A stretch of 64,000 bases of DNA from Candidatus Nanoarchaeia archaeon. GTDB lineage: Archaea; Nanobdellota; Nanobdellia; Woesearchaeales; UBA525. Within the stretch, counting starts at the first letter, position 1, and every line of letters starts with the position of its first letter. The position numbers were made by a program, and so were the translations under genes. The DNA lies in assembly GCA_028279755.1 (NCBI GenBank), contig JANQNB010000011.1, positions 192,501 to 256,500 on the forward strand, in the 5' to 3' direction. The notes below the pieces were generated by a model. The model was not told where the DNA came from and did not search any database. It saw only the letters and a list, made by a program, of their open reading frames with translations. Of the stretch, positions 1,415 through 4,438 are shown in pieces.

Positions 1415-1478
1415 GACATCCACCTCATCCGATGCAAATCATGAGAAAGAGGGTTTTTAATTATTACTATTACGAAAA

Positions 1479-1605
1479 TGCGGGTGGGGAGACTTGAACT
1501 CCCGACCTCCAGATGGCTCAGCGCCGTGTCCAGTCATCGCTCCGAAGAGCTCGTCACTCACGGCATTTATGAGTCTGGCGCTATAACCAGCTAAGCTACA
1601 CCCGC
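1479..1605 (-). tRNA. tRNA-Met(CAT), elongator-type, with 53-nt intron
   Basis: GCGGGTG/CACCCGC forms the acceptor stem, with discriminator A. The D arm is GCTTAGCTGGTTATAGC, the anticodon stem is CCAGA/TCTGG, and the T arm is GGGAG-TTCAAGT-CTCCC. The anticodon CAT is followed, after position 37, by an intron at 1515-1567. The intron folds with a GCCGTG/CACGGC stem and a terminal GCTC-TTCG-GAGC hairpin flanked by tandem GA/GA. The anticodon stem lacks the GGG/CCC pairs of initiators, so this is elongator Met. Ile2 (lysidine/agmatidine type) cannot be excluded. Confidence 0.87.
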
Positions 1606-3432: not shown

Positions 3433-4191
3433 ATGCATCAAGAAGTAGTATCATGCATACCCGACACTACCCAACACGCCGACTACCGCAAGATAGTGCT
3501 GACGCACGTCGTGTACGAACTTGTACGCAAGGGTGCTCTTCCGGCCATTGAAGGGAAACACTGCTTGAACATCGGGCCGAGCAGCAGCGGTCTCGACGGC
3601 CTGGTGCTCCACCAATTCCAGCCAGCAAGCATCGACGCCGTTGAAATCAACAGAGACCACTTCAATTGTCTGCACAGATTGAATGCATATCTTGCGCAAC
3701 AGCACGAACGATACCGGCAAGGACTGTATAGATATATCTTCCACAAAGATGTTCACGCAGCGCCCAGTATCCTACCCCAAAACGCGTATGACCTTATCGT
3801 CGCGTTCAATATGCATGCAGCATCGATGCGTTGGGAAGAGCTCAGTCCGACACTCGGCAGACTTCTCAACACCCGAGGACATCTCTTGCTGTCGGCAGCA
3901 TTACCCGACCAAACAAGTGTGTATTTGGGACATCATTTTGAAAGCATCACGATATGGCCGCTCAGCTCCTTTCTCGAACAGCATCCAATCGTCTGGTATG
4001 GGGGTCGAGGAGGAATTTTTCGGGACAGATTCGGTTTCACCAAGCCAGAAGATCAAGCCAAAGGGAGAATGGACGAGTATATCATTGTCGCCAAAAGCAT
4101 GAACGCTGGGACAAGCTCACTCGCTCCGCTCATGGACGCTGCGGGATTCGCACCCGCGGCCTCAACGTTGCGAACGTTGCGCTCTGACTAG
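3433..4191 (+). CDS. SAM-dependent methyltransferase-like protein, 3' end runs into tRNA-Ala
   Basis: The 252-aa product has a Rossmann-like start: CLNIGPSSSG (about 45-54) as the SAM-binding loop and DAVEINRDH (about 69-77) with the acidic residue after strand 2. DLIVAFNM serves as the strand-4 region. The conserved-looking body ends at MDEYIIVAKS near residue 217. The last 30 or so residues are translated from DNA that includes the antisense strand of tRNA-Ala(CGC), and the stop lies inside that tRNA. The tail is therefore probably read-through sequence acquired when the original stop was lost. The function is a weak family call. An AAATAAG element lies about 25 nt upstream. Confidence 0.6.
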   Translation: MHQEVVSCIPDTTQHADYRKIVLTHVVYELVRKGALPAIEGKHCLNIGPSSSGLDGLVLHQFQPASIDAVEINRDHFNCLHRLNAYLAQQHERYRQGLYRYIFHKDVHAAPSILPQNAYDLIVAFNMHAASMRWEELSPTLGRLLNTRGHLLLSAALPDQTSVYLGHHFESITIWPLSSFLEQHPIVWYGGRGGIFRDRFGFTKPEDQAKGRMDEYIIVAKSMNAGTSSLAPLMDAAGFAPAASTLRTLRSD

Positions 4192-4207
4192 ACTGAGCTA
4201 AGCGCCC
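4133..4207 (-). tRNA. tRNA-Ala(CGC)
   Basis: GGGCGCT pairs with AGCGTCC through a G3-U70 wobble, the alanine identity element. The D arm is GCTCAGTCTAGTCAGAGC. The anticodon stem-loop is CAACG-TTCGCAA-CGTTG, giving anticodon CGC. The T arm is GCGGG-TGCGAAT-CCCGC and the discriminator is A. There is no intron and no encoded CCA. It overlaps the 3' end of the methyltransferase-like ORF on the opposite strand. It has no TATA box of its own and should be cotranscribed with the upstream tRNA-Ala(GGC). Confidence 0.93.
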
Positions 4208-4253
4208 GTTTTGCTCCGCAAAACGTGCGCAACTTCTGGGTATAACCCAGAAG
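4208..4253 (-). other. Hairpin leader of tRNA-Ala(CGC) (element D-Ala)
   Basis: A GTTTTGC-TCC-GCAAAAC hairpin (4208-4224) directly abuts the tRNA 5' end. A perfect 10-bp hairpin, ACTTCTGGGT-ATA-ACCCAGAAGT (4232-4254), lies beyond it. The outer boundary is a second copy of the tRNA's first nine nucleotides. The order (duplicated end, CTGG/CCCAG hairpin, GCGC, GCAAAAC/GTTTTGC hairpin, tRNA) is the same as in the tRNA-Ser leader. Confidence 0.55.
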
Positions 4254-4262
4254 TAAGCGCCC
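4254..4262 (-). repeat. Duplicated tRNA-Ala(CGC) 5' end
   Basis: These nine bases are identical to 4199-4207 (acceptor 5' strand plus TA), displaced by 55 bp. The displacement at tRNA-Ser is 57 bp. The repeat is short, so the identity alone is weak. The shared context gives it weight. Confidence 0.5.
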
Positions 4263-4290
4263 TTCTGTGAAGCAACGATGTTTCCACCGC

Positions 4291-4302
4291 ATGGACCCTG
4301 CG
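4291..4302 (-). repeat. Duplicated tRNA-Ala(GGC) 3' end
   Basis: These twelve bases are identical to 4364-4375, the acceptor 3' strand and start of the T stem of tRNA-Ala(GGC), displaced by 73 bp. The rest of a tRNA is absent. Confidence 0.6.
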
Positions 4303-4363
4303 ATATCCTCACGCCGCTGCGCAGCGTTCGGGACCGCAGCTTCCAAGGGATCTCCGATCCCTT
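4303..4363 (-). other. Hairpin trailer of tRNA-Ala(GGC) (element C-Ala)
   Basis: A perfect 8-bp hairpin, AAGGGATC-TCC-GATCCCTT (plus-strand reading, 4345-4363), begins 1 nt after the tRNA. A CTGCGGTCCCGAAC spacer and a CGCTGCGCAGCG palindrome follow, then GTGAGGATAT before the duplicated tRNA end. The layout parallels element C-Ser. Confidence 0.5.
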
Positions 4364-4364
4364 A

Positions 4365-4438
4365 TGGACCCTGCGGGATTTGAACCCGCGGCCTCCCGAT
4401 TGCCAACCGAGCGCTCTACCAGACTGAGCTAAGAGCCC
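4365..4438 (-). tRNA. tRNA-Ala(GGC)
   Basis: GGGCTCT/AGGGTCC forms the acceptor stem with G3-U70. The D arm is GCTCAGTCTGGTAGAGC. The anticodon loop TTGGCAA gives GGC. The T arm is GCGGG-TTCAAAT-CCCGC and the discriminator is A. There is no intron. A TATA box at 4463-4472 puts the transcript start about 3 nt upstream of the mature end, so this is the promoter-proximal gene of the Ala tandem. Confidence 0.94.

Follow-up and report, generated by a model that had tools for sequence, protein, structure and literature searches.

Small palindromic elements at woesearchaeote tRNA gene ends, a candidate family of DNA insertions

In the genome of a Candidatus Nanoarchaeia archaeon (assembly GCA_028279755.1), two tRNA-Ala genes are separated by a short segment in which the 3′ end of one gene and the 5′ end of the other are repeated beside hairpins, which raises the question of what this segment is. 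The window, meaning the whole stretch of DNA analyzed here, spans 64,000 nucleotides of contig JANQNB010000011.1 (positions 192,501 to 256,500, forward strand), and, at 75% identity in glutamyl-tRNA synthetase, the best named relative is a Woesearchaeota MAG, which makes the window woesearchaeote DNA. We propose with moderate confidence that the tRNA-Ala intergenic segment contains two small palindromic DNA elements of one family, inserted at woesearchaeote tRNA gene ends.

As presented in Table 1, both end copies of the preliminary description were found at the tRNA-Ala pair. The 3′-end copy, 73 bp downstream of the tRNA-Ala(GGC) end, was equalled in none of 200 shuffles, and the 5′-end copy, 55 bp upstream of tRNA-Ala(CGC), is modest when taken alone (p ~0.015). 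The hairpins described beside the two genes were present as well. The second hairpin downstream of tRNA-Ala(GGC) gave 54.9 bits (E 6e-9 in its own genome) with model R1, of which it is a training sequence, and a fold z-score of −3.4. The tRNA-Ser gene, to which the pair had been likened, has the same layout with longer copies, and its 3′ element holds an R1 match at 351-304 (50.6 bits, also a training sequence). The tRNA-adjoining hairpins vary in sequence, and it is the second hairpin, ending in the outer copy, that is better conserved. No end copy was detected in the flanks of tRNA-Met (1605-1479). ARAGORN as run found two of the four window tRNAs; with Rfam, over the window and the element loci, tRNA alone reached the gathering score, and the elements match no known RNA family. 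A scan of the whole window for tandem-GA hairpins returned 7 on both strands versus 0-3 per strand in shuffles, hardly an excess, and one of these matches was the tRNA-Ser 5′ element.

Table 1. Features of the tRNA-Ala pair and of the tRNA-Ser gene in the window
Feature	Position	Strand	Basis or remark
tRNA-Ala(GGC)	4438-4365	minus	ARAGORN and Rfam RF00005, 65.6 bits
First hairpin, AAGGGATC-GGA-GATCCCTT, abutting the 3′ side of tRNA-Ala(GGC)	4363-4345	minus	sequence and fold
Second hairpin, type-1 element	4345-4292	minus	arms: TGGAAGCTGCGG (inverted) and the outer copy; core: TCCCGA-stem-loop-TGAGGATAT
Outer copy of the tRNA-Ala(GGC) 3′ end, 11-nt CGCAGGGTCCA	4302-4292	minus	stops at the nucleotide 73 position
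Outer copy of the tRNA-Ala(CGC) 5′ end, 9-nt GGGCGCTTA	4262-4254	minus	sequence match
Hairpin CTTCTGGG-TTATA-CCCAGAAG, adjoining the outer 5′ copy	4253-4233	minus	fold
Short inverted arm TTGCGCAC	4232-4225	minus	GCGC of the arm and GCGC in the outer 5′ copy pair
Hairpin GTTTTGC-GGA-GCAAAAC, abutting tRNA-Ala(CGC)	4224-4208	minus	sequence and fold
tRNA-Ala(CGC)	4207-4133	minus	ARAGORN and Rfam
tRNA-Ser with intron, elements on both flanks	487-384	minus	Rfam, 41.2 bits
tRNA-Ser 3′ element	383-290	minus	last 26 nt (315-290) repeat the tRNA 3′ end
tRNA-Ser 5′ element	544-488	minus	first 13 nt (544-532) repeat the tRNA 5′ end

We then looked at how often tRNA ends are duplicated, aligning the terminal 14 nt at either end of each tRNA to its own flank (score of at least 9, expectation from shuffles). 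For the window genome (G000), the set comprised 42 tRNAs, 41 found by the Rfam model in the assembly plus the window tRNA-Ser. A 3′ copy was observed at 15 and a 5′ copy at 9 of them, for about 0.14 expected each (Poisson tails 1e-25 and 5e-14). The four genus mates gave 3′ and 5′ copies at 10/32 and 7/31, 15/35 and 9/35, 7/23 and 4/23, and 3/25 and 3/25 tRNAs, a few of these cases being neighbouring tRNAs of the same kind; once such cases were dropped, and with a slightly lower score limit, the five genus genomes held 73 elements. Another genus of the same family had 10/29 (3′) and 7/30 (5′), and further families of the order had 3′ copies at between 1/14 and 7/26 tRNAs, with the best-scoring tRNAs considered in distant genomes and mostly draft assemblies compared throughout. 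The shuffles and the flanks of the other tRNAs rule out a chance origin. The preliminary description had argued from recurrence for a system, and had proposed aligning the flanks of all tRNAs as a check; the pattern does recur, although not every tRNA has it. Overall, the element is a real and recurrent feature of tRNA termini in one archaeal order, and most tRNAs are without one. RNase P RNA, examined by eye as a further stable RNA, has no end copies. Literature searches, in which few subscription papers were covered, returned no description of such elements, which were apparently undescribed before.

The elements share a common anatomy. Outward from the tRNA, the usual order is the tRNA end, a spacer (from 2 nt up to a hairpin), an imperfect inverted arm, a core stem-loop and the outer end copy, with about 40-130 bp for the element and target copy together. 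In the commonest class (type 1), the conserved core is TCCCGA-hairpin-TGAGGAYA. The 16 type-1 elements of G000 align to one hairpin, with 87.6% of the cells paired and 74 cells changed on both sides versus 27 in shuffles, and slid registers were all far worse. In this hairpin, CGA facing GA (tandem G-A) is invariant and two neighbouring pairs are nearly so, a 1x2 asymmetric loop adjoins the outer helix, and the sequence of the apical stem-loop varies, the changes being paired. Two of the 16 are 5′ elements and are read on the opposite strand, so that type 1 has an outward polarity at both tRNA ends. Type 2, at 5′ ends, has the form CAGCGTYGCTACCCTGGGAAGCAGGGG..TCAAGCCCC, and stretches of about 30 nt are identical at different tRNAs; type 3 contains GGAACGAAGTGACTG, and a separate class occurs at tRNA-Ser 5′ ends. 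A kink-turn or C/D box was considered for the tandem GA and rejected, since by eye, and against the generally known features of these motifs, the tandem GA lies in a continuous helix and the 3-nt bulge is absent.

The two arms of the hairpin differ in how well they follow the tRNA. In 70 hairpin elements, chosen partly by copy quality, the outer copy is identical to the tRNA end at 697/716 positions, whereas the inverted arm pairs at 514/641, i.e., 97-99% identity compared to about 80% pairing. Such a gap is not expected if both were perfect at insertion and then decayed freely, and it counts against the insertion reading. Since the gap is large and the mismatches of 3′ elements cluster 4-7 nt from the outer end, the inverted arm may never have been perfect, like the arms of folded recombination sites, instead of having decayed from a perfect copy.

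The position of the elements was then compared with that of promoters and trailers. Of 128 tRNAs lacking a 5′ element, 77 have a TATA-like box whose start is 28-42 nt upstream. Where a 5′ element is present, the box keeps this distance (−28 to −42) from the outer copy in 16/28 cases, whereas the inner tRNA has a box at that distance in 1/28 (Fisher p 2e-5). T-rich trailers behave alike, coming after the outer 3′ copy rather than after the inner end (p 3e-5). Box and trailer thus place the extra sequence between the tRNA and its original flank, so that every element separates a tRNA from the promoter or trailer that it originally had. At G002:C86, the repeat continues 15 nt into the leader, and G008:C73 carries a long tandem repeat, leader included.

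Other observations bear on movement at the DNA level. Few orthologous tRNAs of G000 and G001 share an element, and most differ. Tandem elements, two in a row, were observed at several tRNAs. Apparent tandem 3′ elements are seen, for example, at G000:C23:38110 (L009), with three TCCGGACGGAGGCG copies counting the tRNA, and at G003:C231 (L061). In G001, a type-1 core lies at a protein gene (G001:C46:5283-5327; L065 1501-1545) between two exact 15-nt copies of ACCTTTGTCGCAACT, just past the stop codon and overlapping what is probably the ribosome-binding site of the gene that follows, at a locus where Rfam detects no tRNA. Its copy matches at 15/15 positions versus 9/11 for its arm, a gap similar to that of tRNA sites. 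The ORF upstream of this site has calcium-loop-like repeats, DYDNDGSLTRDD and DLDGDGLVCDED. A weaker non-tRNA case is found at G000:C14:36281-36331, and elements are very rare outside tRNA loci. Type-2 sequence is found at 5′ ends, immediately behind 3′ ends and, in one case, as an intron within a tRNA. The type-3 stretch of G003 recurs in G005 as its exact reverse complement CAGTCACTTCGTTCC, both downstream of a tRNA, and type-1-like cores occur in three further families of the order.

Model R1 was trained on 16 G000 elements, and R1 and R2 matches in training genomes are partly by construction; further R1 matches in G000 beyond the training set are nearly absent. Of the eight independent R1 matches in G001, G003 and G004, seven neighbour a tRNA, truncated at a contig edge in one case, and the remaining match is the G001 site at a protein gene. 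R1 gave no match in 14 genomes outside the genus, and distant cargo-bearing versions were looked for with models R1 and R2 only. No within-species polymorphism was seen, which counts against the insertion reading. A viral source was also considered and rejected. The gapped core pattern had 30 matches in viral contigs, no more than the estimated chance number, R1 had a single match at E<1 (0.13), and the type-2 20-mer had no match in these contigs.

The same features could be read at the RNA level, an interpretation that we regard as unlikely. Hairpins of the precursor tRNA would mimic the acceptor/T-stem helix and guide, delay or regulate processing, as a tRNase Z-like substrate downstream and an RNase P-like substrate upstream. 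Such a role is kept alive by the 3′ helix, whose 12 bp equal the length of the acceptor (7) plus T stem (5), and in 21/24 cases the 7-bp 5′ helix gives way to a mismatch at the U8 position. The outer copies, which hardly differ from the tRNA end, mostly stop exactly at mature nucleotides 1 or 73, which looks like RNA and not DNA logic. Judged by promoter position, the elements are inside the transcribed unit, and RNase P RNA is present, so that ordinary 5′ processing is expected. However, arm mismatches on the transcript strand show no significant excess of G-U over A-C (31 vs 19, p 0.12), a core stretch is found in both orientations, one member sits at a protein gene and the repeats reach into leaders; in addition, turnover between orthologous tRNAs is rapid and most tRNAs are element-free. 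The first four of these points disfavour precursor processing and decoy acceptor ends, two of the three ideas of the preliminary description, to which the anatomy does not mainly point. The best fit is with its third idea, a small element targeting tRNA termini.

A purely mutational origin, which we consider quite improbable, would have fold-back template switching at tRNA borders create inverted triplications, in which an inverted copy lies between two direct copies of the end; the common core would then reflect shared hairpin constraints and not a mobile unit. The minimal forms have exactly the order expected, i.e., end, 2 to 4 nt, inverted end, core and end (G000 C23:159787 and C4:140553; G001:C84:8156), and the arms match the local target at the non-tRNA site too. 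Template switching alone would nevertheless not be expected to give a core, TCCCGA..TGAGGAYA, common to families of the order, nor the identical type-2 stretches at different tRNAs. The mismatches of the inverted arm also fall at preferred positions, at about the same distance from the core at the non-tRNA site.

A special case of insertion would be that the elements are folded single-stranded recombination sites, comparable to integron attC or the attP of CTX phage, with arms as binding boxes and extra bases near the core for strand choice; we give this version a low probability. An attC site is an imperfect hairpin with mid-arm mismatches, asymmetric extra bases, a variable apical stem and an R box of consensus GTTRRRY / RYYYAAC. 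The elements resemble it in the first four respects, with an outer box, a mismatch spot at k = 4-7, an inner box, the 1x2 asymmetric loop and the variable apical stem, and they form tandem arrays. By contrast, their arms derive from the tRNA and have no common box sequence (by eye, the attC features and consensus being those of general knowledge), and they carry neither cassette nor other cargo. Archaeal integrons have been reported (PMC9668308), but no integron integrase was identified here, in matches to PF00589 that do not separate IntI from other proteins of this family.

PF00589 integrases are present in four of the five genus genomes, and the elements could be imagined as scars of ordinary tRNA-targeted integrative elements (with SSV-type or pNOB8-type integrases) whose cargo was deleted and whose partial tRNA copy was left. 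Known elements of these types have attB sites at tRNA ends and leave one full and one partial tRNA (PMC3293823; PMC9897764). The likeness lies in the targeting of tRNA termini and in the intact tRNA with a partial copy as far-side direct repeat. In contrast to these kilobases of genes including an integrase, we observed regions of 42-130 bp with hairpins, an inverted copy and no gene. The same tiny size, hairpins and core recur at many different tRNAs, the inverted arm would be left unexplained, no PF00589 gene neighbours a tRNA in G000, and the search of G004, a genome with elements, found no such gene. We therefore hold the scar explanation to be very improbable.

Among other known systems, MITE and REP-like repeats are small, non-coding and hairpin-forming, occur in many copies and in tandem, and have fixed arm sequences in known families. 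The elements are likewise small, geneless units with inverted arms, in many copies and in tandem, but here the arms follow the target tRNA end and only the core is common. No matching transposase was found in G000, G001 and G004, from which the Y1 (HUH) transposase PF01797 is absent; it is present in G002 and G003. Casposons may insert at tRNA 3′ ends with target duplication, a point of likeness, and encode Cas1 and PolB over several kilobases, for which regions of 42-130 bp leave no room. Archaeal bulge-helix-bulge (BHB) introns and split or permuted tRNAs also place extra structured sequence on tRNA genes, and one type-2-like intron was observed here. The elements differ in lying outside intact tRNAs, with junctions that lack the 4-bp helix and two 3-nt bulges; the predicted folds instead combine a 1x2 loop with 2 bp and a loop of tandem GA, which does not fit a BHB splice site.

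Small palindromic DNA insertions at tRNA termini are the best-supported reading, in which we have middling confidence, the attC-like special case being weighed apart. The unit would spread, or arise repeatedly, at the DNA level, probably via a folded single-stranded hairpin. Since the tRNA end is present twice, the tRNA stays intact, and duplication of the target end would permit settling at tRNA termini without killing the tRNA. Selection would remove versions whose hairpin arm is the functional copy, which would explain the mostly outward polarity. There is no fixed element sequence, the arms being different at each tRNA; to our knowledge, no small mobile element accounts for this, which counts against insertion. 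Further points against it are that no mobilising enzyme emerged among the PF00589 integrases and Y1 transposases, and the rarity of elements away from tRNAs. Tentatively, the elements could represent a new minimal class of mobile hairpin, a folded single-stranded DNA (or RNA) that pairs or recombines with the tRNA end, has target-matched arms and no genes of its own, and occurs through much of one archaeal order. In some of these archaea, roughly one in three detected tRNA genes has an altered end region, which bears on tRNA annotation, on precursor processing and on ideas about tRNA gene disruption in archaea. Were the units mobile, they would illustrate how duplicating the end of an essential gene provides a safe landing site, and hairpin arms that follow the target would imply an unknown way of choosing or copying targets.

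A few further tRNA loci deserve mention. Both tRNA-Ala genes are present at G001:C84:8746-8897 (L236), in swapped order relative to window positions 4133-4438, 3 nt apart and element-free. Introns occur in many tRNA genes of the window genome, including the one at window positions 1479-1605. At G004:C77:10659-10711 (L380, tRNA at 1456-1595, minus strand), a type-2-like sequence is placed like an intron at the anticodon loop, and a second one lies just upstream of the same tRNA. The tRNA intron at G001:C93:4585-4708 (L376) contains TCTGAACGCGAGTGAAGATATC, which resembles the type-1 core with CT/AG replacing CC/GG.
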